Source: Calothrix anomala FACHB-343 (GTDB lineage Bacteria; Cyanobacteriota; Cyanobacteriia; Cyanobacteriales; Nostocaceae). Taken from it: 64,000 nucleotides of DNA. Numbering within the stretch: position 1 is the stretch's first letter; each line of letters starts with the position of its first letter. Made by a program: the position numbers and the translations under genes. Where the stretch lies: NCBI RefSeq assembly GCF_014696435.1, contig NZ_JACJQG010000014.1, forward strand, positions 1 through 64,000, given 5' to 3'. The notes under the pieces are model-generated. The model was given only the letters and a program-made list of their open reading frames with translations. It was not told where the DNA came from and did not search any database. This document shows positions 10,391 through 62,285 of this stretch, piece by piece.

Positions 10391-12445
10391 TTGACAGTCA
10401 TCTTGAACACACTGGCTGGACGCTACGAAATCATTCGGCAACTTGGCGGCGGTGGTTTCGCTGTAACATTTCTGGCTAGGGATAATTTGCAACCTAGCAA
10501 ACCTTTATGTGTCGTTAAGCAATTACGTCCCAATCAATCTCATCCGCCTGTGGTGGAATTCTTTGAAAAAGAGGCGGCTGTTCTAGAAAAATTAGGACAA
10601 CATCCGCAAATTCCCCAATTACTCGCACATTTTAGCGAAGACGAAATTCTCTACATAGTTCAGGACTTTATCGAAGGACAAGACCTGAGTCAAGAAATTA
10701 TTCCTGGTAGGCGATTGAGTGAGGATTATGCAACTCAGTTGTTGCAAGATGCGCTAGAAGTTTTGTCCTTTATTCATAGTAAAGGAGTAGTACATCGCGA
10801 TATTAAACCGCAGAATTTAATGCGCCGACATGAAGATGGGCGAATTTTTTTGATTGATTTTGGCGCAGTTAAAGAACTTGGTTCTCTGATGGTAAATTCT
10901 CAAGGTGAAGTCTATTCCAGCGTTGTCATCGGGACTTCGGGATATATGGCTTCAGAACAAAAAAATGGTAGACCTTGCTTGGGTAGTGATGTTTATGCTT
11001 TAGGGATGACTATCATTCAAGCATTAACTGGTATTGTACCCTCCCAATTACCAGAAGATCCATTAACAGGGGAAATCATCTGGCGCAATCAAGTCCAAAT
11101 TAACGATCGTTTGGCAGAAGTGTTAACTAATATGGTGCGGCGTCACTTTAGTTTACGCTATTCCCATGCTGGTGAAGCATTGCAAGCGTTAAAAGTACCG
11201 CCAACACGTTTGCTTAATCCTTCTGCGGAGCAAGTATACCGTCAAGAAGCGAGAAATCGCGCACAACAAGGACAGGGTAATTTTTCCGTTTTCGCGTTGA
11301 AAATATTGGAAGCTAAACGCATTGAGTTAGGGTTATCTGAAGAGAAGGCGCAAGAAATTCACGAACAAGTTCTGCAACCATATCGCGAATATCAAAAGAA
11401 GTTACAAGAATACGAACAAGTCTTAATTGATGCAGTTAAACAGCATTATCCTTTTAATGAGACGACGCAAAAAGATTTGCAAGATTATCAGCAACATTTA
11501 GGATTAAGAGATGAAGACATCGCGGTAATAGAAGCCAGAGTACTTCCCGAAAAACCACAACATGGAAAAGTTGAAGTAAAAACTCAACTGTTTGAATTTG
11601 AATTTGCTACTCTAACTGTGAAATCTGAATTAGCAAATAAAAGCAACAGTTTGATAATTAATCGCATTCGCGGACGAGCAAAATTTTTTGCTGAAAAATT
11701 AGGTAATAGTGGCATAGTTTTAGAAATGGTTGCAATTCCTGGTGGTGACTTCCTTATGGGTTCACCAAAGGATGAACCAGAAAGATATAACTCTGAAAGT
11801 CCACAACATAGAGTGACGATTCCACCATTTTTCATGGGAAAGTATCTGGTAACGCAGAGTCAATGGAAAGCTGTTGCGGCTTTTGAAAAGGTAAATATTC
11901 CCTTGAATCCTGAAGTATCCCATTTTAAAGGCGCTAATCGACCTGTAGAACAAGTATCTTGGGATGAAGCTGTGGAATTTTGTGCGCGACTGACTCAATT
12001 TACGGGAAAACCTTATCGTTTACCCACGGAAGCAGAATGGGAATATGCTTGTCGCGCGGGAACATTTACGCCGTTTTGCTTTGGGGAAACGATTACAACT
12101 GATTTAGCTAACTATAACGGGAATTACGTATACGCTTCTGGGACAAAAGGCGAATTTCGGGGACAAACAACCGATGTAGGAACCTTTCCCGCTAACCCTT
12201 TTGGTTTATTTGATATGCATGGTAATACTTGGGAATGGTGTCAAGATAACTGGCACAAAAATTACAACGGTGCGCCTACAGATGGTAGCGTCTGGCTGAG
12301 TGATAATCACAATCGCTTGGTGCGTGGTGGTTCCTGGAATCTCAATCCTTGGAATTGTCGTTCAGCTGTGCGTAATTGTAATGCGCGGGAGAATAAATAT
12401 ATTAATGTTGGTTTTCGGGTTGTGCTGGGTTATTTGAGCAATTAA
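10391..12445 (+). CDS. Ser/Thr protein kinase fused to a formylglycine-generating-enzyme (SUMF1-like) domain
   Basis: 684 residues from TTG 10391 (another TTG at 10403 is possible). The N-terminal Hanks kinase domain (about 1-275) has the glycine loop LGGGGFAVTFLARD, VVKQL lysine, catalytic HRDIKPQN and DFGAVKEL. A charged helical linker (about 290-420) follows. The C-terminal domain (about 445-684) is FGE-sulfatase/SUMF1-like, with IPGGDFLMGS, RPVEQVSWDEAVEFC, YRLPTEAEWEYACRAG, DMHGNTWEWCQD and VRGGSW. In cyanobacteria such fusions are numerous. The FGE-like domain may be a ligand-binding C-type-lectin-fold unit rather than a true formylglycine enzyme. No transmembrane segment is seen, so it is probably cytoplasmic. 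Substrate unknown. Confidence 0.88.
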   Translation: MTVILNTLAGRYEIIRQLGGGGFAVTFLARDNLQPSKPLCVVKQLRPNQSHPPVVEFFEKEAAVLEKLGQHPQIPQLLAHFSEDEILYIVQDFIEGQDLSQEIIPGRRLSEDYATQLLQDALEVLSFIHSKGVVHRDIKPQNLMRRHEDGRIFLIDFGAVKELGSLMVNSQGEVYSSVVIGTSGYMASEQKNGRPCLGSDVYALGMTIIQALTGIVPSQLPEDPLTGEIIWRNQVQINDRLAEVLTNMVRRHFSLRYSHAGEALQALKVPPTRLLNPSAEQVYRQEARNRAQQGQGNFSVFALKILEAKRIELGLSEEKAQEIHEQVLQPYREYQKKLQEYEQVLIDAVKQHYPFNETTQKDLQDYQQHLGLRDEDIAVIEARVLPEKPQHGKVEVKTQLFEFEFATLTVKSELANKSNSLIINRIRGRAKFFAEKLGNSGIVLEMVAIPGGDFLMGSPKDEPERYNSESPQHRVTIPPFFMGKYLVTQSQWKAVAAFEKVNIPLNPEVSHFKGANRPVEQVSWDEAVEFCARLTQFTGKPYRLPTEAEWEYACRAGTFTPFCFGETITTDLANYNGNYVYASGTKGEFRGQTTDVGTFPANPFGLFDMHGNTWEWCQDNWHKNYNGAPTDGSVWLSDNHNRLVRGGSWNLNPWNCRSAVRNCNARENKYINVGFRVVLGYLSN

Positions 12446-12933: not shown

Positions 12934-13028
12934 TTGTATTAGATACCCATATATGGGTTTGGTGGGTTCAAGGTGATGCAAGACTGATTACAAAATATCA
13001 AAACTGGCTGTTAAGACTCTGCTTCTAA
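12930..13028 (+). pseudogene. VapC-type PIN toxin, N-terminal fragment
   Basis: The frame opens with MIVLDTHIWVWWVQGD, the beta-1 strand and first catalytic Asp of PIN-domain RNases (full length about 125-130 residues). It matches through KYQNWL, then runs into a stop at 13026-13028. The last codons lie inside the 3' end of the opposite-strand gene (13011-13322), so the toxin body has been deleted and the remnant abuts that gene. Three of the four catalytic acidic residues are gone, so it cannot be an active nuclease. Confidence 0.8.
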
Positions 13029-13322
13029 TGCACGTGCAGCTTGATCTAGTCTATCGTTGCTATCTTTTGCTAGCTTGAGCCATGAAGCTGTAACGCTACC
13101 ATAAATTCCACCACCTGCGGCGGTGATGGTTCCGGCGGAAATGTTACCAGAAAACAGTAGCATAATTCCTGCAAAACCAGCGATCGCACTAATTGTTGTT
13201 AATCCAAAAGCTAGGTTAAACGCTGTTTTAGCTTGGCGCAGTCTTTCCTGATAAATGCTGTGGCGTTCTTGGTAAATTAGATTTGTTACCTGTTGTGTCT
13301 TATCTTGGTTTTGGTTATCCAT
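13011..13322 (-). CDS. TRADD-N-associated two-transmembrane domain protein
   Basis: 103 residues. A hydrophilic N-terminal helix (about 1-35, IYQERHSIYQERLRQAKTAF) precedes two hydrophobic helices (about 36-60 and 61-80) joined by a glycine-rich turn, then a short charged C-terminal helix. This layout and the strings FNLAFGL and AGGGIYGSVTASWLKLAKDSNDRLD match the cyanobacterial TRADD-N-associated TM domain. Comparative genomics links that domain to prokaryotic immune/conflict systems as a membrane-active partner of TRADD-N proteins; no TRADD-N protein is in this window. It is monocistronic on the minus strand, divergent from the HTH-STAND ATPase gene 190 bases away. Confidence 0.65.
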   Translation of the reverse strand: MDNQNQDKTQQVTNLIYQERHSIYQERLRQAKTAFNLAFGLTTISAIAGFAGIMLLFSGNISAGTITAAGGGIYGSVTASWLKLAKDSNDRLDQAARALEAES

Positions 13323-13511
13323 TGTGCTTGCCCTTGCAATAAACTCTACAACTTAATTAAAATCGGGCAATAGGTGAGAACATAGCTGACTGAACAGCTG
13401 AGTTGTAGTAGATTTTTAGGCGATTTGTAGTTTTTCTAGGGTTTAGTACATAATGCTGTCGCGCTTGCTACTCTACAATTAACTGTGATTGGTATGAATC
13501 TATGAGGTGTA

Positions 13512-14615
13512 ATGGCGCGATCGCTGCGGGTAGCTCCAGAGTATATTAAAAAAGTTAAGTCAGCACTTCAGCCTAATGGCTATCCCAGCCAGCAGTCATT
13601 AGCTAATGAAGTAGGATTTTCTCTATCCACTGTTAAAAGCTTTCTTAGTGGTAAACCTGTTGATTATCTCAATTTTGTAGAACTTACCAGCAAATTAAGC
13701 TTAGACTGGCAAGAAATTGCATTTAAAGAACAAGAAACTCAACCGCGCCAACCCCAACATAACGGGGAAGCTTCACCTTTCATTACTGGTTCACCCATTA
13801 CGCAACCCCGTCACTTTTTTGGACGAGAGAAAGAATTAAAGCGCCTGTTTAACTTACTCAAACGCCATCCCCTGCAAAACGCCGCCATTATTGGTAAAAA
13901 GCGTAGCGGTAAAACATCCCTGCTGCACTACCTGAAAAATATCACCACTACTCCAGCATTACAACTGCGTCCAAATCAAAAGTCTGATTGGCTACCACAG
14001 CCAGAAAATTATCAGTGGATTTTTGTAGATTTGCAAGATGCAAGAATGCAGAATCGCGAGGGGTTGCTAAAATACATCCTCGAATCCTTGAAACTGCAAG
14101 TACCAAACCCTTGTGACTTAGATTACTTCATGGATATAGTCAGCGACAACTTGCATCAACCCACAGTTATTTTATTAGATGAAATTGGTGTAGGATTGCA
14201 ACGCTGTCCAGAATTAGATGATGGATTTTGGGAAAGTTTGCGTTCTTTAGCGACTAACTCCACAGACGGAAATTTAGCTTTTATTTTAGCTACACCAGAA
14301 TCACCAATTGAACTGGCGAAAAATACAGGACATAGTTCGCCTTTTTTTAATATTTTTGGTTATACCGCATATTTAACTGCTTTAACCGAACAAGAAGCGC
14401 GAGAATTAATAGCCAGTTCTCCTATTACTTTTGCTGATGAAGATGTAGAGTGGATTTTAAATCAAAGTCAGTGTTTGCCAATTTTGTTACAAATACTCTG
14501 TCGCGAAAGATTATTTACATTAGAAGAAGCAGAAGATGATGAAAATTGGCAAGAAGAAGCTTTAACACAGATACAGCCATTTGCTAATTTATTGGATAAT
14601 CGCAAGGAGGGCTGA
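13512..14615 (+). CDS. HTH (vMAP-N-like) plus AAA/STAND ATPase
   Basis: 367 residues. Residues 1-72 form the small HTH-like domain (APEYIKKVKSALQ, STVKSFLSGKPVDYLNFVEL) found at the N-terminus of many cyanobacterial STAND signalling proteins (vWA-MoxR-associated protein N-terminal type). After a linker comes an AAA_14/STAND-like ATPase with Walker A GKKRSGKTS (about residue 127 on), Walker B TVILLDEIG (about 218 on) and a sensor-like LAFILATPES. There is no WD40, TPR or other effector tail, unlike most relatives. A nuclease-fold gene starts 3 bases after its stop codon, so the pair is almost certainly co-translated. The function may be regulation or loading of that nuclease. Confidence 0.78.
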   Translation: MARSLRVAPEYIKKVKSALQPNGYPSQQSLANEVGFSLSTVKSFLSGKPVDYLNFVELTSKLSLDWQEIAFKEQETQPRQPQHNGEASPFITGSPITQPRHFFGREKELKRLFNLLKRHPLQNAAIIGKKRSGKTSLLHYLKNITTTPALQLRPNQKSDWLPQPENYQWIFVDLQDARMQNREGLLKYILESLKLQVPNPCDLDYFMDIVSDNLHQPTVILLDEIGVGLQRCPELDDGFWESLRSLATNSTDGNLAFILATPESPIELAKNTGHSSPFFNIFGYTAYLTALTEQEARELIASSPITFADEDVEWILNQSQCLPILLQILCRERLFTLEEAEDDENWQEEALTQIQPFANLLDNRKEG

Positions 14616-14617
14616 AA

Positions 14618-15238
14618 ATGCCTTTTAGTAATTACAAAAGTATTAGCACAGTTGCTAAAGAATTTCAGATTAAATATGTTCGCGATAACTTCATTATTGA
14701 AATGAATTTTGCGATTAGTGAAACATTCCGTCAAGAATTAGATTTGATTTTTAATGAAGGGGTTTTTGATAACTCAGAAATTGCTATTTGCGAAAACATT
14801 ATTTACCCAGTGTTAAAGGAAGTATGGAAAGCTTATCGTAGTAAATTTCTGCTTTGGAGTCATCAAACTTTGATTTATGATGATAAATTATCTGGTATTC
14901 CTGATTATATTTTGGCAAAGCGATCGCCTTTGGGTACAGTTGTCTTTGATAAACCTTATTTTGTGTTAGTTGAAGCTAAAAAAGAAAGCGATTTTACAGA
15001 AGGATGGGGTCAATGTTTAGCAGAGATGCTAGCAGTGCAGCGAATTAATAATGAACCCAAGAATACTGTATTTGGTATTGTTTCTAATGGTGCAGTTTGG
15101 CAGTTTGGCAAGCTAAATTTAGATATTTTTACACAAAATAAAACTTTCTATACAATTCAAGATATGGAACGGCTATTTGCGGCTGTTAATTATGTCTTTC
15201 AACAGTGCGAATTACAATTAGATCGTCCTGTAACATGA
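14618..15238 (+). CDS. PD-(D/E)XK nuclease-fold protein paired with the ATPase
   Basis: 206 residues with the core of the PD-(D/E)XK superfamily: an Asp in GIPDYIL (about residues 92-98), then a hydrophobic strand ending in FVLVEAKKES (E-x-K, about 116-125) and a following helix with a conserved Gln (GWGQCLAEMLAVQ). This fold includes restriction enzymes and many defence nucleases, but some members only bind. The start ATG at 14618 is 3 bases from the ATPase stop, with AAGGAGG just upstream inside the ATPase gene. Similar proteins are annotated as hypothetical in cyanobacteria; DNA or RNA cleavage is inferred, not shown. Confidence 0.7.
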   Translation: MPFSNYKSISTVAKEFQIKYVRDNFIIEMNFAISETFRQELDLIFNEGVFDNSEIAICENIIYPVLKEVWKAYRSKFLLWSHQTLIYDDKLSGIPDYILAKRSPLGTVVFDKPYFVLVEAKKESDFTEGWGQCLAEMLAVQRINNEPKNTVFGIVSNGAVWQFGKLNLDIFTQNKTFYTIQDMERLFAAVNYVFQQCELQLDRPVT

Positions 15239-15539: not shown

Positions 15540-15730
15540 TTACCCCAATTCAATGAACGCCTACCCCGAATCAATAAACGACAACCCCAATTCAATGAAC
15601 GTCTACCCCGAATCAATGAACGTCTACCCCGAATCAATAAACGACAACCCCGAATCAATGAACGCCTACCCCAATTCAATGAACGCCTACCCTGAATCAA
15701 TGAACGACAACCCCGAATCAATGAACCCGA
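15540..15730. repeat. 21-bp tandem repeat array (about nine units)
   Basis: Units of the form AATCAATGAACG(T/C)CTACCCCG, alternating with AATAAACGACAACCCC variants, run for about 190 bases. The period is a multiple of three, so long frames stay open on both strands, including a 57-codon frame from ATG 15522 to TGA 15693 and a 102-codon antisense frame. None resembles a known protein. Treated here as a minisatellite; translation as a heptad-repeat peptide is possible but unsupported. Confidence 0.8.
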
Positions 15731-15953: not shown

Positions 15954-18401
15954 ATGGCATCGCCAAATATACTCCACAACGCCTACCTTCGCAACGCCTA
16001 CACCGATGCACCGCAACAGCACCCTAACTTAATACTGGGTAGTCTGCAACTGCTGTTCTGGCTTTTCTTCCGTCCTAAAGTATGGCGTAATCACCTCAAA
16101 CGCATTGACTCAACTTTAAAAACCGATACCGCTTTAATTACTTTTATAAGACAAGGAAAATGGCGGAATCTTGCACTTTGGCGTTTTCTCATGCAGGTAT
16201 ACCTCATTTTACCTATTCAGGCTAACTTATTGCTAGGTTTGGTTTTATGGGTATTAGGTGAACCAATTACAACTATAGTTGAGCAAGTGGCGTTTGGCGT
16301 GGCGTTTGGCGTGGCGTTTGGCGTGGCGTTTGGCGTGGCGTTTGGCGTGGTGTTTGGCGTGGTGGTAGGCGTGGCGTTTGGCGTGGCGCTAGGCGTCGTG
16401 CTGGGAGGCGTGGGAGCAGGCGTCGTGCTGGGAAGCGTGGCGTTTGGCGTGGCGTTTGGCGTGGCGGAAGGTGTGGCGTTTGGCGTGGCGCTAGGCGTGG
16501 CGCTAGGCGTGGCGCTAGGCGTGGCGTTTGGCATGGCGGAAGGCGCGGCGCTAGGCGTGGCAGTAGGCGTGGCGGTAGGCGTGGGTTTTACTATTAATTC
16601 ATGGCTACCGATCTTATCTTTTCCATTTCTCACAGTATGGAATTATTTACTTTATCGATTAGACAAAATACGTAATGGTAAAAGTCCCTGTGTATTTCGC
16701 TATCACTCTGCTTTCTGGGATGAATGGCAGCGTTTACATCTGCCTGGCTTAGATGAGTATTTGCTTTTAATCATCGAACATAACCCAGTTGAAGGAAAAA
16801 TCGCTTTAAAATACCTCAGTACTAGTCCCCAACGCTGGGCGGCTCAAGCTGCTCAAATTGAATTAAATATACAAGCACTAGAACGCTGTGCAGATGTGGA
16901 AGCTATCAGCCAGATTCATCACCGTCTGACATCTGGCAAACTGGAAAGCCCAGTTGAAAATCTGCTACGCATTTTCATTGACATTAGTGAGGATATGGAT
17001 GCTGCCCTCAAGCAAATAAGTTTTTATAACCAGCTTAAACTACTTAGCGCTGTTGCAGAGCGTTTAGATGTAAACTTGCAGGAAATTAGACGCAGTAACA
17101 ACAAATACGTCCCCCGCTTTTACCCTATTGCTCAAAGTTGGCTGAATATAATTACCAAGCATACAGAAGAACTGGATAAAGCCATCGAACTCCGACGAGA
17201 AATTGACAATCCCTACATTACTGGCGTACCACTTAACGAGCAACTAGAAATTTTCACGGGACGCATCAGTATTGGCTTACGCATTGAGCATTTACTTTTA
17301 GATCCCCGTCGCCCACCTTTGCTACTTTACGGTCAACGACGCATGGGCAAAACTTCTTTACTCAACAACTTAGGAAAAATGCTACCTAATAGCATTATAC
17401 CCATGTTTGTAGACTTGCAAGGCGCACCCGCATCAGCTAGCAACTATGCAGGTTTTCTCTACAACCTTGCAAGAGAAATGGTGAAATCAGCTAAAAAGCA
17501 AAGTGTTACGCTACCACCCCTAAACCGCGAAGCGCTAGCCTCTGACCCCTTTACTAGCTTTGACGAATGGTTAGATACAGTAGAACAGATACTCGACCAA
17601 AATACCGCTTTGTTAATGCTAGATGAGTTCGAGGTACTAGACAAAGCCATATCTAAAGGACGCTTTAATAAGCAAGATGTTTTGGGAATTTTGCGTCACT
17701 TGGTTCAACATCGTCCCCGCTTTCAGGAGCAAGATGTTCTGCAAATGCTGCGTCACCTTATCCAACACCGTCCTCATTTTCAGGAGCAAGATATTCTGGG
17801 AATGCTACGTCACCTCATCCAACATCGTCCCCGCTTCAAGGTGTTGCTAGCAGGTTCCCATACTATCGAGGAATATCAACGCTGGGCTAGTTATCTCATA
17901 AATGTGCAAATAGTGCATATCTCATACTTAAAAGAAGCAGAAGCGCGACAACTAATTGAACGCCCTGTGAAAGATTTTACTCTACGCTATGAACCTGACG
18001 CAGTTGAGCGAGTTTTACAACTTACCCGTTGTCATCCGTTTTTGATACAACTACTTTGTGCAGAAATTATAGCCCTAAAGAATGAGCAAGACCCCTCAGT
18101 ACGGAGATTGGCGACTTTAGCCGATGTAGAAGCAGCAATTCCCGAAGCTTTCAAAAGTGGTAGTTTGTTCTTCGCTGATATCGAAAATAACCAAGTAGAT
18201 GATAATGGTAGGACGATTTTACGCTTTATTGCTGCTCAAGGGGAAGGAGCGATCGCACCTCACGAAACCTTATCACAACAGTTTCCCCACGCTGCAACCA
18301 CCCGCAAGTTACTATTACAGCGAGAGTTAATTGAAGAAGTTGCTGAAGGCGATCGCTTTCAGGTAGAGTTGATTCGCCGTTGGTTTACTTTGGATAGGTA
18401 A
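15954..18401 (+). CDS. STAND ATPase with a long GxxxG glycine-zipper membrane repeat
   Basis: 815 residues. N-terminal region 1-105 includes two hydrophobic stretches (about 30-40 and 78-101). Residues 112-211 are about 25 repeats of a GVAF/GVAL tetrapeptide, giving glycine at every fourth position, a glycine-zipper pattern expected to pack as membrane helices. A further hydrophobic segment (about 215-235) follows, then a soluble region. The C-terminal half is an AAA/STAND ATPase: Walker A LYGQRRMGKTS (about 450-460), Walker B ALLMLDEFEVL, then a threefold 19-residue duplication QDVLGILRHLVQHRPRFQE, sensor KVLLAGSHT, and a winged-helix-like end. Possibly a membrane-acting signalling or conflict protein; this is inference. 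Confidence 0.78.
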   Translation: MASPNILHNAYLRNAYTDAPQQHPNLILGSLQLLFWLFFRPKVWRNHLKRIDSTLKTDTALITFIRQGKWRNLALWRFLMQVYLILPIQANLLLGLVLWVLGEPITTIVEQVAFGVAFGVAFGVAFGVAFGVVFGVVVGVAFGVALGVVLGGVGAGVVLGSVAFGVAFGVAEGVAFGVALGVALGVALGVAFGMAEGAALGVAVGVAVGVGFTINSWLPILSFPFLTVWNYLLYRLDKIRNGKSPCVFRYHSAFWDEWQRLHLPGLDEYLLLIIEHNPVEGKIALKYLSTSPQRWAAQAAQIELNIQALERCADVEAISQIHHRLTSGKLESPVENLLRIFIDISEDMDAALKQISFYNQLKLLSAVAERLDVNLQEIRRSNNKYVPRFYPIAQSWLNIITKHTEELDKAIELRREIDNPYITGVPLNEQLEIFTGRISIGLRIEHLLLDPRRPPLLLYGQRRMGKTSLLNNLGKMLPNSIIPMFVDLQGAPASASNYAGFLYNLAREMVKSAKKQSVTLPPLNREALASDPFTSFDEWLDTVEQILDQNTALLMLDEFEVLDKAISKGRFNKQDVLGILRHLVQHRPRFQEQDVLQMLRHLIQHRPHFQEQDILGMLRHLIQHRPRFKVLLAGSHTIEEYQRWASYLINVQIVHISYLKEAEARQLIERPVKDFTLRYEPDAVERVLQLTRCHPFLIQLLCAEIIALKNEQDPSVRRLATLADVEAAIPEAFKSGSLFFADIENNQVDDNGRTILRFIAAQGEGAIAPHETLSQQFPHAATTRKLLLQRELIEEVAEGDRFQVELIRRWFTLDR
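16289..16586 (+). repeat. 12-bp tandem repeat coding for GVAF/GVAL
   Basis: About 25 units of GGCGTGGCGTTT and close variants (GGCGTGGCGCTA, GGCGTCGTGCTG) lie within the ATPase gene. The array is strongly G+T biased on the coding strand, unlike its flanks. Near identity of neighbouring units suggests recent expansion by slippage; the antisense frame is also open and should not be taken as a gene. Confidence 0.9.
17673..17843 (+). repeat. Three tandem 57-bp units inside the ATPase domain
   Basis: Units at 17673-17729, 17730-17786 and 17787-17843 each encode a 19-residue segment beginning QD(V/I)L and containing RHL(V/I)QHRP. They lie between Walker B and the sensor strand, where relatives would be expected to carry one copy. 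Confidence 0.9.
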
Positions 18402-18560: not shown

Positions 18561-18667
18561 GCTTCATTTGGATGCAGATACCTCCAGTCAATCGCTACAT
18601 TCAGCATTGGTGTCTAAAAGCCTTAATGGTATGATATCAGGAAAATTTTGGTTTTTTCGCGCTTAAT
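18554..18667 (+). pseudogene. DUF5615 PIN-like toxin, N-terminal fragment
   Basis: ATG 18554 opens MLKLHLDADTSSQSLHSALVSK, the beta-1 strand and first acidic residues of DUF5615/Mut7-C-like PIN-family toxins. Similarity ends after about 25 residues and the frame then runs out to a TAA at 18665-18667, at the start of the next gene. This is a second truncated toxin in the island, again cut just after its first catalytic strand. Confidence 0.65.
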
Positions 18668-19109
18668 GATTCCTGAATTTGATGAAAATGGTAATCTACC
18701 ACCAGGTGTGCATTTTTGTAATTGGAATGAGTTGAAAGAGAGATTTGGATATAATCTACGCCGCCGCAACTTAATCAATGGAATTGAAGAAGTATTAACC
18801 TTACTCAAGGCTGCTAGATGTCGAACTGCATATTTAAATGGAAGTTTTGTGACATCTAAATTAAATCCCCAAGATTTTGATATGTGCTGGGATCGCGATG
18901 ATGTAGATGTTGAGTATTTGAAGAAAAATGCACGCTTATTATTAAATTTTTATAACAGTGCGGCACAAAAAGCTAGGTATGGAGGCGAAATTTATCCATC
19001 AGACCAACCTGTGGATGAGTCTATAATGTCAATAGAGTTTTTTCAACGGGATAGGCAGCAAAATCAAAAAGGCATTATAGCTATTAATCTATGGGAGTGG
19101 GAGCCGTGA
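18666..19109 (+). CDS. DUF6932-like nucleotidyltransferase-fold protein
   Basis: About 147 residues from ATG 18666 (an upstream in-frame TTG at 18648 is less likely; MIPEFDENGNLPPGVH is the characteristic N-terminus). The segment TAYLNGSFVTSKLNPQDFDMCWD has the G-S-x(n)-D-x-D arrangement of DNA polymerase beta-type nucleotidyltransferases such as MNT antitoxins and AbiEii-like toxins. Its stop overlaps the GTG of the next, XRE-type gene (GTGA, 19106-19109). The two genes behave like a toxin-antitoxin-type pair, but which would be toxic is not evident. Confidence 0.7.
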   Translation: MIPEFDENGNLPPGVHFCNWNELKERFGYNLRRRNLINGIEEVLTLLKAARCRTAYLNGSFVTSKLNPQDFDMCWDRDDVDVEYLKKNARLLLNFYNSAAQKARYGGEIYPSDQPVDESIMSIEFFQRDRQQNQKGIIAINLWEWEP

Positions 19110-19621
19110 TTAAAAATGAGCATGAATATCAAGTAAGTAAATCTTGGGTAGTAAAATTTCAACAAGCGATTATTAGTTTGTACCAAAATGAAGAGAAAAA
19201 GCAAAAAGATCCCGATGGTTGGCAGCTAATAATTGATTCTTATTTTGCTCAAATTAAAAACCTACTAGACGAAATCACTGAATATGAATCTCTAGTAGAC
19301 CACAATTCCCAAGAAATTTTAATTTTACAAAATTCCAATATTAGGCTTTCACAAATTGGTGAAATTCTCATTAAGGTCAGAATTGCTAAAAAAATAAGTC
19401 TCGAAGAACTGTCTGCAATTACTAAATTAACGAAAGAACAGATAAAAGAATATGAGGATAAAGATTATCAAAATGCTAGCTTTGATGCTGTAATCGAGAT
19501 AGCCGAAGCTCTGGGTATTAAATTACAACATTGTACTGTGGTGTCTGAAATTAATAATTTTCTTAGTAATGAACTGACAAAAATCCGGCAATTTGAGCAT
19601 ATTAGCAATCTCAGTGAATAA
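19106..19621 (+). CDS. XRE-family HTH protein, partner of the DUF6932 gene
   Basis: About 171 residues from GTG 19106 (an upstream ATG at 19091 lies inside the previous gene). The N-terminal half is helical and charged (HEYQVSKSWVVKFQQAI) with a predicted coiled segment near 45-65. The C-terminal part is a helix-turn-helix of the Cro/C1 type: IGEILIKVRIAKKISLEELSAITKLTKEQIKEYEDKDY, followed by FDAVIEIAEALGIKL. The 4-base overlap with the preceding nucleotidyltransferase-like gene argues for translational coupling. A role as DNA-binding antitoxin or autoregulator is inferred. Confidence 0.75.
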   Translation: MIKNEHEYQVSKSWVVKFQQAIISLYQNEEKKQKDPDGWQLIIDSYFAQIKNLLDEITEYESLVDHNSQEILILQNSNIRLSQIGEILIKVRIAKKISLEELSAITKLTKEQIKEYEDKDYQNASFDAVIEIAEALGIKLQHCTVVSEINNFLSNELTKIRQFEHISNLSE

Positions 19622-21933: not shown

Positions 21934-22011
21934 ATGTTATTGCCAACTGCAACTAATTTATTAGCGATCGTTGCTCAGATTATTCTTTCTCTTGTGGCGG
22001 GTGTTGTATGA
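21934..22011 (+). CDS. Tiny hydrophobic ORF coupled to minC
   Basis: 25 residues (MLLPTATNLLAIVAQIILSL then VAGVV), a single potential transmembrane helix. GGGGTGAGG lies immediately upstream of its ATG. Its TGA overlaps the minC ATG in ATGA (22008-22011), whose own upstream region has only a weak ribosome-binding site. This may be a leader peptide or small membrane protein translationally coupled to minC. It is too short to judge from composition alone. Confidence 0.4.
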   Translation: MLLPTATNLLAIVAQIILSLVAGVV

Positions 22012-23117
22012 CTTCTGATTCTGCCAATTTAGAGTCCAATTCTGCAATTCCTAATGCAGAAGCCCAATCTCACCTTTCGCCTAGCGAGTCAAATTCTATT
22101 CTCCCTGACACAGAGTTAAATTCTGTGCTGCAATTTTTAAAGGCTAATGCACCATTAAATGCAGATAGCCTGGAAGGAGAGCAAAATTCTCTGACTACTG
22201 ATGGGGAAATAAAAAAAGACAACCCAGAAGGTGAGAAAAGTTCTGTAACAACAGATGCAGTCGAAAATTCCGCAAATCCTGAAGGGGAAAAGCAAGCTGA
22301 GGCGAATTCTCAGTTAGATTCGATTTCCGCCTTGTCTGATTTAAATACCCTAGATTTAGTACCCCCAGAAAATAAAGTCAAAAATAATATTCAAGTTCAA
22401 TGGAAAACACAGGAGGGAAAACTTTTATTAATTTTACCCACAGAAGCCCAAGTACCCGCCGCAGACTTTAGCTGGTATGAAATTTGGCAACAAATGCGCC
22501 AACGCCTACAAGCCGATCGCTTTCGGGTAGCCAATACACCAGTACATCTGCTGGCGAAAGACCGCTTGTTAGATAGCAGACAACTGCAAGAACTAGCTGA
22601 GGTCTTAAATGAAGTCCAACTCCAACTAAAATCTGTAGCTACCAGTCGCCGCCAAACTGCGATCGCAGCTGTGTCTTCTGGTTATTCTGTAGAACAACTA
22701 CAACCAGAAAGTTCTCTGAGTTCCGAAACCAAAGCCGCACCTACTCCCTTAGCAGATGCTTTGTATCTGGAAATGACAGTACGTTCGGGAGTAGAAATTC
22801 GTCATCCCGGTAGCGTCATCATCTACGGAGATTTAAATCCAGGTGGTAGCGTAGTAGCAGATGGAGATATTTTAGTTTGGGGTCGGTTACGCGGAGTCGC
22901 CCATGCTGGTGCAAGTGGTAATCGGGAATGTCTGATCATGTCCTTGCAAATGGAACCTACCCAATTGCGGATTGCAGACGCCGTAGCTAGGGCACCAGAA
23001 AAATCGCCTACCCAGTTTTCCCCGGAAGTAGCGCATATCACACCCCAAGGTATTCGCATCGCTAGGGCGATAGATTTTTCCCGTAACCAATTAAATCGGA
23101 TGAATCTAGAGCCGTAA
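22008..23117 (+). CDS. minC: Septum site-determining protein MinC
   Basis: 369 residues, longer than E. coli MinC (231) because of a low-complexity Ser/Asn/Glu-rich N-terminal extension of about 120 residues. The MinC N domain follows (about 125-205, with IQVQWKTQEGKLLLILP). The C-terminal beta-helix (about 245-345) has SGVEIRHPGSVIIYGDLNPGGSVVADGDILVWGRLRG split across its turns, the MinD-binding and dimer region. MinC inhibits FtsZ assembly away from mid-cell. It is first in minC-minD-minE, with gaps of 44 and 33 bases. The start overlaps a 25-codon ORF. Confidence 0.92.
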   Translation: MTSDSANLESNSAIPNAEAQSHLSPSESNSILPDTELNSVLQFLKANAPLNADSLEGEQNSLTTDGEIKKDNPEGEKSSVTTDAVENSANPEGEKQAEANSQLDSISALSDLNTLDLVPPENKVKNNIQVQWKTQEGKLLLILPTEAQVPAADFSWYEIWQQMRQRLQADRFRVANTPVHLLAKDRLLDSRQLQELAEVLNEVQLQLKSVATSRRQTAIAAVSSGYSVEQLQPESSLSSETKAAPTPLADALYLEMTVRSGVEIRHPGSVIIYGDLNPGGSVVADGDILVWGRLRGVAHAGASGNRECLIMSLQMEPTQLRIADAVARAPEKSPTQFSPEVAHITPQGIRIARAIDFSRNQLNRMNLEP

Positions 23118-23161
23118 GTAATTACTATAATTTCTAAACCCTAATTGAGCGTGTTTCGATC

Positions 23162-23968
23162 ATGACTCGCATTATTGTCGTTACCTCCGGTAAAGGAGGA
23201 GTGGGTAAAACCACAGTTTCCGCAAACCTGGGCATGGCTATAGCCAAAATTGGGCGTCAAGTAGCCTTAGTTGATGCAGATTTTGGTCTGAGAAATTTAG
23301 ACTTGCTGCTAGGACTAGAAAACCGCATTGTCTACACGGCGGTAGAAGTTTTAGCCAGAGAATGCCGTTTAGAACAAGCTTTAGTCAAAGATAAGCGGCA
23401 AACTAACCTCGTACTGTTACCAGCCGCCCAAAATCGCACCAAAGAATCAGTCACCCCCGACCAAATGAAGTTATTGGTAAACGCACTGGCGCAAAAGTAT
23501 CAGTACGTAATCATCGATAGCCCAGCAGGGATTGAAATGGGGTTCAAAAATGCGATCGCACCCGCCAAAGAAGCCTTAATTGTCACCACCCCGGAAATTT
23601 CTGCTGTCCGCGATGCTGACCGCGTAGTCGGGTTATTAGAAGCACAAGGAATTAAGCGAATTCATCTAATAATCAACCGCATCAGACCCGCAATGGTGCG
23701 AGCCAATGATATGATGTCTGTTCAAGATGTTCAGGAACTTCTTGCCATCCCCTTGATTGGCGTCATCCCTGACGACGAGCGTGTAATTGTTTCTACCAAT
23801 CGTGGCGAACCTCTGGTATTATCTGATACCCCATCCTTAGCAGCTACAGCCTTTGAGAACATTGCACGGAGATTAGAAGGGGAATCTATACCTTTTCTTG
23901 AACTAGACTCAGTTCACGACAACATCTTTACCCGGTTAAGAAAATTGTTGTGGACAAAACTTGCATAA
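23162..23968 (+). CDS. minD: Septum site-determining ATPase MinD
   Basis: 268 residues, the standard length. The deviant Walker A is SGKGGVGKTT (residues 9-18), followed by switch regions DADFGLRNLDLLLGLENR and IDSPAGIE (Walker B-like). The C-terminus ends in an amphipathic membrane-targeting helix (FTRLRKLLWTKLA). MinD binds the membrane as an ATP dimer, recruits MinC and is released by MinE. It sits between minC and minE on the same strand. Confidence 0.96.
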   Translation: MTRIIVVTSGKGGVGKTTVSANLGMAIAKIGRQVALVDADFGLRNLDLLLGLENRIVYTAVEVLARECRLEQALVKDKRQTNLVLLPAAQNRTKESVTPDQMKLLVNALAQKYQYVIIDSPAGIEMGFKNAIAPAKEALIVTTPEISAVRDADRVVGLLEAQGIKRIHLIINRIRPAMVRANDMMSVQDVQELLAIPLIGVIPDDERVIVSTNRGEPLVLSDTPSLAATAFENIARRLEGESIPFLELDSVHDNIFTRLRKLLWTKLA

Positions 23969-24001
23969 CTATATCCTTCCGTCTCCGCAGACCTATTAGC
24001 A

Positions 24002-24310
24002 ATGATTCTCGAACTTTTAGAAAGACTTTTTTTTCGCGCCCCAGATACCAGTCGGACGCATGTTAAACGTCGCCTGCAATTGGTAATCGCCCACGATCGC
24101 GCTGACATCGATCCCCAAAAATTAGAAAAAATGCGACAAGAAATTTTAGAAATTGTCTGTCGCTATGTGGAAGTTGATACAGAGAACCTAGAGTTTTCTC
24201 TAGAAAGTAATCAACGAACCACAGCCTTAATTGCTAACTTACCCATTCGTCGAGTTAAAGAAGCAGAAACCACAGAGGAATTAGAAAGCAGCGAAACCAC
24301 AATGCTGTAA
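24002..24310 (+). CDS. minE: Cell division topological specificity factor MinE
   Basis: 102 residues. The N-terminal membrane/MinD-contact helix ([11 protein letters not shown]) and the anti-MinCD segment with AKRRL-like [16 protein letters not shown] precede the C-terminal topological domain ([17 protein letters not shown]). A short acidic tail is extra. MinE stimulates MinD ATPase and drives oscillation. Last gene of the min cluster. Confidence 0.94.
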
Positions 24311-29048: not shown

Positions 29049-30051
<1,003 letters not shown>

Positions 30052-39423: not shown

Positions 39424-40014
39424 GATCTTATTTGCTACAACTAGCGCCAATCTACCCTATAACTGTGAAATCAAGCAGCCTAGCCAAAGGCGGTGCTATT
39501 ACAGCTGAGGATGGTATAGGTTTATTATTATCTCCTGTTCTCGGTCTGAATAGTTGGGTAATCTCATGCGCATCTACATTGCATAACTACTAATAAGGGC
39601 TGTCAACAGTCAACAGTCAACAGTCAACAGTCAACAGCCCTCACAATGGATTGTGCAACTTAAAAGCAGATTCGCTTAATCTTTCGCCGATTCAATAGGC
39701 TAACCTCAATATTTATCCTGATGCGGGAGAATATCGCAGGAAAATATGATACAAACCCATATTTTATGCTAATTTATCTATTTTTAACCTGTGAGATTTA
39801 TTTGCGTTTTTCTACTGATTCACTTAAAGAGAAATTTCTTCAAATCTTCATCTTTATCAAGGGATAGATACATCTAAATTTAAGACATTTTTAATAGTTC
39901 TAAAGTAGGATAAATAATCATACAAGAGATGCAATCCTACCCAAAGATAAATTCAGTAAATTATGGGTAAGGAAACTTTTGAAGATAAAAAATTAATAAA
40001 TAGGATAGGTAATT
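39424..40014. other. Intergenic region, 590 bases
   Basis: Contains a CAACAGT tandem repeat (39602-39638, five units). No gene recognised; the rest is AT-rich. Confidence 0.6.
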
Positions 40015-61702: not shown

Positions 61703-62285
61703 TGTCACCCTCAGAATAATTGCAAATAGCGTTGACTGTTGACTGTTGACTGTTGACTGTTGACTGTTGACTCTTAAGAGAGATTTTCATGCTTGGTTGT
61801 GTAATTTTTTCCTTGATGGCTAGCTTGAAAGATTGATTTCTCCCTTATCTTCCTTGATCTCCTTTCATACATGGCGATGAAAATTGTTTCATCAAGACTG
61901 CCTTTTTTAGTCAAAATTGCCTACAGACATCGACTTTGGTAATTGTTACAGGTTCCCTATCGCTTGTAACCATTGCTTGGGCGTAAGTCTGGCACAATGT
62001 AAAAGTTGGGCATTGGGCATGGGGCATTGGGCATGGGGAATGAATTATTCAAGCCTAAAGTTTAAAGCTCAAAGCTTAAAGCGTTGGGGTGCTGTGCTTT
62101 TCCACTCATCAAAGGATTAAGTGTCTCGCCGGTTTCAATCAAGGATTCTAGCTGTTAGATTAAGGTTGGAAAGCAGGTTAGACTTATAAATTTTTGCGGA
62201 ATTTTTGAGAATTTCCTGAATGCTCTTGTTGTAGTTAAGCCTAGTTGATTCAGTATATTCGGCAACTCTTTGGTAATTTTAACAA
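61703..62285. other. Intergenic region rich in tandem repeats
   Basis: Five to six TTGACTG heptamers (61733-61770), then a block matching 44972-45016 (CTCTTAAGAGA...TTGGTTGTGT), and GGGCATT/GGGCATG heptamers (62007-62038). A short frame across 61917-62120 is composed of these repeats and is not accepted. Confidence 0.75.

Follow-up and report, generated by a model that had tools for sequence, protein, structure and literature searches.

The 64,000-nucleotide stretch of Calothrix anomala FACHB-343 DNA analysed here (contig NZ_JACJQG010000014.1, positions 1 to 64,000; the window) raises the question of what a glycine-zipper array is doing on a STAND ATPase. The array lies in the N-terminal half of an 815-residue protein encoded at 15954..18401. 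A second ATPase gene upstream, which was overlooked in the first-pass annotation of this DNA, suggests an answer. We tentatively favour a two-gene paired STAND NTPase system in which the array protein would be the membrane platform or input and its partner the output. Together the two genes look like a membrane-linked system for signalling or defence that has not been described before.

The array gene and its ATPase

The features of the array gene are as follows; A1 is an alignment of 16 sequences.

15954..18401, +: membrane STAND ATPase gene, 815 aa from ATG, recognized as an open reading frame (ORF) with an AAA_22 match and family homologs
15954..16286, +: conserved N-terminus, residues 1-111 (YTxAPQQHPNLILGSLQLLFWLFFRP...), with predicted helices including the first hydrophobic helix
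16287..16586, +: GVAx glycine-zipper array, residues 112-211, with a 12-bp DNA unit
16587..17207, +: helical linker preceded by the final predicted membrane helix, residues 212-418
17208..18398, +: STAND NTPase module, residues 419-815, comprising nucleotide-binding, helical and winged-helix parts
17331..17357, +: GQRRMGKTS, residues 460-468, presumably Walker A; all residues but R462 invariant in A1, and R462 nearly so
17610..17633, +: LLMLDEFE, residues 553-560, presumably Walker B; LDEFE largely invariant in A1
17671..17836, +: in-frame 57-bp repeat in 2.9 copies (19 aa x 3) after Walker B, triplicate in the window only
18027..18044, +: RCHPFL, which we take to be a GxP-like STAND motif; H694 and P695 invariant

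Tandem Repeats Finder reports 16287-16584 as a period-12 tandem repeat of 24.3 copies with 80% matches, 4% indels and the consensus GTGGCGTTAGGC. The 100 residues of the array contain 27 glycines and 22 GxxxG motifs. Shuffled sequences had a mean of 6.8 and a maximum of 15 such motifs, and none of 100,000 shuffles reached 22. The mean Kyte-Doolittle hydropathy is 2.05, and E172 and E196 are the only charged residues. AlphaFold2 models residues 105-130, 132-150, 170-192 and 194-239 as helices, in a model with a mean pLDDT of 75.4 and a pTM of 0.49 whose confidence drops to 34-57 in the middle of the array. The first-pass description of a hydrophobic, helix-predicted GxxxG segment is therefore borne out, and the residues it gave for the repeat region, 90-240, were roughly right. 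Its count of about 25 GVAF units agrees with the 24.3 copies and with 23 units that fit the looser pattern G[VMA][AVG]x, but only eight units are strictly GVAF. The description was right in substance, but glycine does not occupy every fourth position throughout; the period is broken once, at a mid-array register slip (LGGVGAGVVLGS) that divides the array into two blocks.

That the array is joined to a nucleotide-switch ATPase was also correct. The protein scores 30.2 bits against AAA_22, above the Pfam cut-off of 27. Its nSTAND1 (PF20703) score is 15.7 against a cut-off of 27.1, which is passed by three relatives (L079, 31.3; L149, 28.4; L095, 31.3; loci are labelled L and genomes G). A search of PDB sequences with A1 gave no match at E<=0.01, and only fold comparison was informative. 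The nearest folds are STAND/NLR, ORC and RuvB, with matches spanning the ATPase part only. A helical and winged-helix module follows the nucleotide-binding domain in an NLR-like arrangement. The protein stops after the winged helix, without a C-terminal TPR, WD40 or LRR sensor. Such C-terminal repeat sensors are common in STANDs, although they are not obligatory. The copies of the 57-bp triplication are about 79% alike, so it is not brand new.

A partner ATPase upstream

13512..14615, +: partner gene, 367 aa, with an HTH-like N-terminus and a smaller STAND-type ATPase (AAA_16 above cut-off)

Both ATPases of the window retain an intact P-loop (GxxxxGKT). We examined 94 loci, five belonging to clade B and 89 to clade A. 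In 75 of the 89, equal to 75 of the 81 with room for it, the partner precedes the array gene on the same strand, at a distance ranging from an overlap to 3.1 kb. Among the 14 loci without a partner, eight are no more than 0.65 kb from a contig end, and six lack it despite sufficient room (L076, L091, L157, L167, L171 and L178). All five clade B loci (of which L095 was domain-scanned) have an ATPase of about 360 residues upstream. Clade C was found by an array-only search of 210 genomes of the family, 58 of which gave a match; 16 loci were read. Ten clade C loci were retrieved with their flanks, and all 10 have a P-loop ORF upstream on the same strand, which is broken into several frames in L215 and cut by the contig end in L212.

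The ATPase of the partner is conserved and its N-terminus is variable. Cyanobacterial partners have an HTH-like N-terminus that scores below Pfam cut-offs. Three further places in the same genome match the first 70-144 residues of the window's partner, so this HTH-like module is shared. Two Chloroflexi partners carry BTAD (L149, E 5e-22; L154, 6e-22), the partners of L165, L215 and L218 carry CHAT, and that of L220 carries Trypsin_2 (E 9e-17). Besides the window's partner, 17 partner proteins or fragments were scanned, and neither GT4 nor HEPN turned up in any of them.

The N-terminus of the array protein can be replaced as well. GAF domains take its place in L130/L090, and what we read as a single hydrophobic stretch does so in L093. 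The array-family protein of L165 has a CHAT-like domain with nSTAND1 instead (Pfam CHAT 23.2 against 24; PADLOC 'chat' E 4e-17). All of these loci keep the partner ATPase. In PADLOC 2.0.0, both L165 proteins match 'chat'; the array proteins scanned otherwise gave weak P-loop matches to PDC-S01/PDC-S27. Output-like domains (HTH-like, BTAD, CHAT and trypsin-like) are thus mostly on the partner, the array protein of L165 being the exception.

Proposed division of labor

Because protease and DNA-binding modules are mostly borne by the partner, we take the partner as the output and the array protein as the platform or sensor. The array would fold into a set of membrane helices packed through GxxxG, keeping the NLR-like ATPase on the cytoplasmic side. 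Both ATPases may join in one mixed ATP-dependent assembly, with the membrane protein serving as platform and input side. Output would pass through the swappable N-terminus of the partner, which would either bind DNA (HTH-like, BTAD) or act by proteolysis (CHAT, trypsin-like). While the locus stays at one chromosomal site, 12-bp units may be added to or lost from the membrane module, and whole modules may recombine. These changes would preserve the position, hydrophobicity and small-residue helices of the module rather than its exact sequence. The direction of signalling, the mixed assembly and a role in defense are all inferred.

If this reading is right, a two-ATPase switch that connects the membrane to DNA-binding or protease outputs is common to many Nostocaceae-type cyanobacteria, Anaerolineae and Beggiatoa-type bacteria, and forms a bacterial parallel of paired NLRs. 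These loci would also supply a natural series of modules on one conserved ATPase, from a single hydrophobic stretch to about 40 GxxxG units. The minimal sequence need of a working GxxxG membrane domain could be tested with such a series.

Variation and origin of the array

The first-pass annotation proposed rapid length variation through the 12-bp repeat, of the kind seen in phase-variable or diversifying genes, and array length does differ strongly between relatives, partly by whole units. With one genome per species, the spacing between the anchors P87 and W217 ranges from 51 to 222 residues in 44 cyanobacterial orthologs, counted without the clade B genes and L047, L071, L077 and L078, in which the anchors were unaligned. 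The spacing equals 3 mod 4 in 25 of the 44, compared with about 11 expected at random, although the genes are related and this is not a clean test. In 109 pairs whose ATPases are more than 93% identical, the length differences were 0, 1, 2 and 3 mod 4 in 36, 28, 15 and 30 pairs. Only 36 differences are multiples of four; therefore, change by whole units is not the sole process. Two especially close pairs do differ by multiples of four, L087 from L088 by eight residues and L077 from L078 by four. The 12-bp unit preserves the reading frame. L087 reaches about 40 GxxxG units.

The codons of the unit vary unequally. A GGC GTG GCG core occurs in 275 of 411 GVA units, and GCG is among the two commonest alanine codons outside the array in only 3 of 38 genes. 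The fourth codon is variable (TTC, GTA, TTT, GGA, TTA, GTC, GAA and others). The GGCGTGGCG core is identical in distant genes, and its synonymous sites are less variable than the fourth codon. A constant core with a variable fourth codon could result from recombination, codon selection or diversifying selection.

Whole N-terminal modules are also exchanged while the ATPase stays 94-97% identical. Identity between L061 and L088 is 95.5% for the ATPase, 94.5% for the partner and 98% for an ALS-like neighbor, but 50% for the N-terminus and 52% for the linker. Between L087 and L091, the ATPase is 94% and the linker 86% identical, against 42% for the N-terminus. In the near relative G012 (L076), the flanks are about 96% identical to the window, as against 77.5% for the N-terminal half of the array gene. 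The ATPase has lost about 1 kb, the last 170 bp of the gene are 95% identical, and window positions 13011-15057, including the partner gene, have no counterpart. Judged by these identities, the locus appears to have undergone allele exchange plus decay.

Of the 218 genomes of the family, 96 have homologs of the array protein (E<=1e-40; in some cases through clade B). In the phylum, 13 of 386 genomes match at E<=1e-60, and G421 and G386 do so only through a 36-42% identical ATPase, which makes the family patchy. Relatives account for the membrane segment better than its structure model does. Those sampled were the best 80 of 131, comprising by record title 51 cyanobacteria, 20 Chloroflexi and 9 of the Thiotrichaceae type. 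In this sample, period-4 runs of at least eight glycines occur only in cyanobacteria (17 of 51). Another 22 of the 51 have at most three period-4 glycines, some of them truncated by contig ends, and the longest run is seven in Chloroflexi and four in the Thiotrichaceae type. In both of these groups the membrane domain is about 330 residues long, has its own conserved motifs and lacks long repeats; in the model of L149, it forms 11 long helices. L079 carries GVAx repeats alongside an ancestral-looking motif (ALPYVITERIAG). The array thus looks like a repeat expansion of GxxxG helices within an older polytopic domain, the order of events being our reconstruction from these sequences. The first-pass view that the segment is hard to explain as a normal transmembrane bundle is not supported, since relatives with seven or fewer period-4 glycines carry an ordinary polytopic domain in the corresponding position. 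By our reading, other orthologs show non-repetitive helices or a single hydrophobic stretch instead. The genera named in the sample, where known, are presumably filamentous or giant; many records are metagenome-assembled genomes, and this is not claimed as a test. A plasmid search gave three weak, uninformative Acinetobacter matches. The window's own genome also encodes a 183-aa ORF (L038, G000:C76) with I/R/G/F-rich repeats and a weak match to the array, probably a repeat in a chance frame.

Other explanations of the array

The array may merely tether the ATPase, with slippage and recombination altering it and hydrophobicity being nearly all that is selected. The wide range of anchor spacings, the low-repeat versions at the same place and the one-stretch replacements suit such an anchor, as do the excess of spacings of 3 mod 4 and the prevalence of one codon core. 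However, a motif-conserved domain of about 330 residues in Chloroflexi and Thiotrichaceae exceeds the needs of a tether, and the bias toward multiples of four among close pairs is so mild that slippage alone is insufficient. We consider this explanation unlikely, though worth keeping in mind.

STAND proteins usually carry effectors at the N-terminus, and GxxxG helices are known in pores. The array could accordingly be the killing part: oligomerisation of the STAND module would cause the glycine-zipper helices to form a pore or to depolarise the membrane and so kill the cell. It occupies the usual effector position, a CHAT-like domain stands at that position in L165, and modules are exchanged beneath a constant ATPase. 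PMC8195603 describes N-terminal effectors, and multi-TM (transmembrane) modules that are possibly pore-forming in another system. Against this, the protease and DNA-binding modules are borne by the partners, and GAF domains or one hydrophobic stretch can replace the array. Apart from the CHAT of L165, the array proteins scanned gave only weak PADLOC matches. Furthermore, an ALS-like neighbor recurs in 31 and an ALDH-like neighbor in 29 of the 94 loci (the names are our reading, and flanks are short in some), which suggests a resident locus. Pore formation by the array itself is possible but unsupported, as is the ligand-triggered membrane permeabilisation suggested in the first-pass annotation, and the killing role as a whole seems improbable.

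A polymorphic recognition system is less probable still. Here, the combinatorial GVAx array, with one variable residue per unit (F, V, G, L, E, Y and others), would be a fast-diversifying sensor in the membrane that detects phage entry or recognises kin, on a stable STAND pair of filamentous bacteria, similar in logic to paired plant NLRs and fungal NLR incompatibility genes.

It is very hard to believe that the array is a soluble silk-like repeat or a translation artefact of a Thr/Pro-rich antisense gene, for although an antisense ORF of that composition overlaps it (16217-16633, -) and short-ORF array matches in other genomes (L205, L209) are taken as antisense reading, the sense frame is kept across three divergent protein clades with the array at the same position and is continuous with an ATPase conserved over phyla.

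Relation to described systems

The ATPase class is already known. Our preferred paired system shares the P-loop, Walker B, HPFL motif, winged helix and fold matches with the STAND NTPases (AP-ATPase/NACHT/MNS/nSTAND; PABY2304 2qen, SSO1545 2fna, CED-4 and plant NLRs). Unlike these, the array protein lacks a TPR/WD40/LRR sensor, has an N-terminal multi-helix membrane domain, and is encoded next to a second STAND-type gene.

The nearest described design found is the nSTAND2 two-gene counter-invader operon, as set out in Kaur et al. 2021 (PMC8195603). It also consists of two STAND genes, one with variable modules. There, one STAND is described as inactive and mostly carries GT4 or HEPN; the operon is said to be mobile. 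By this description, the window differs in that both proteins have an intact P-loop, with no eroded NTP-binding motifs and no GT4 or HEPN found, and in that the modules are HTH-like, BTAD, CHAT or trypsin-like. The EACC2 systems in the same text similarly combine a constant module with a variable, sometimes membrane, module, including multi-TM modules 'that might form membrane pores'; they are caspase-centred, whereas the window has paired STANDs. The conflict-system logic of Kaur et al. (PMC7159879, PMC8195603) resembles by analogy a constant pair with variable ends. The Npun2340/2341 family of STAND NTPases, named in PMC8195603 and by its name suggestive of two adjacent Nostoc genes, may include the array and partner genes. 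The literature searched contained no report of a STAND ATPase with a GVAx or glycine-zipper array, nor of the three-clade pairing or the module exchange; most subscription papers lay outside it, so this is weak evidence of absence.

Neighboring genes and repeats

Three further features lie close to the pair.

13011..13322, -: optional CyanoTRADDas_TM two-TM protein, in 12 of 94 loci
14618..15238, +: optional PD-(D/E)XK-like gene (PADLOC PD_DExK) between both ATPase genes, in 8 of 94 loci at varying positions
15541..15726, +: tandem repeat of 21/63 bp in the stretch separating the ATPase genes

A mobile island is not favoured as a reading of the locus, given the recurrent ALS- and ALDH-like neighbors. 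Long repeat ORFs lie close to the array gene in some relatives (e.g., L062 and L090). Downstream, at 18648-19621, a DUF6932 gene overlaps an HTH gene, and these may form a toxin-antitoxin-like pair; the DUF6932 protein matches the PADLOC candidate PDC-M63A. A Ser/Thr kinase fused to an FGE-sulfatase domain is encoded at 10391-12445. G012 has a second, 75% identical copy of it directly downstream of the decayed ATPase gene. A MinD-like gene (23162-23968) with neighbors that we read as minC- and minE-like is found at 22008-24310, and in G013 and G014 the clade C array genes (L214, L219) are also near a MinD-like gene. Perfect heptamer tandem repeats occur at 29334-29370 (CCATGCC), 39602-39637 (GTCAACA) and 61731-61772 (GTTGACT), which we take to resemble the short repeats of heterocystous cyanobacteria.
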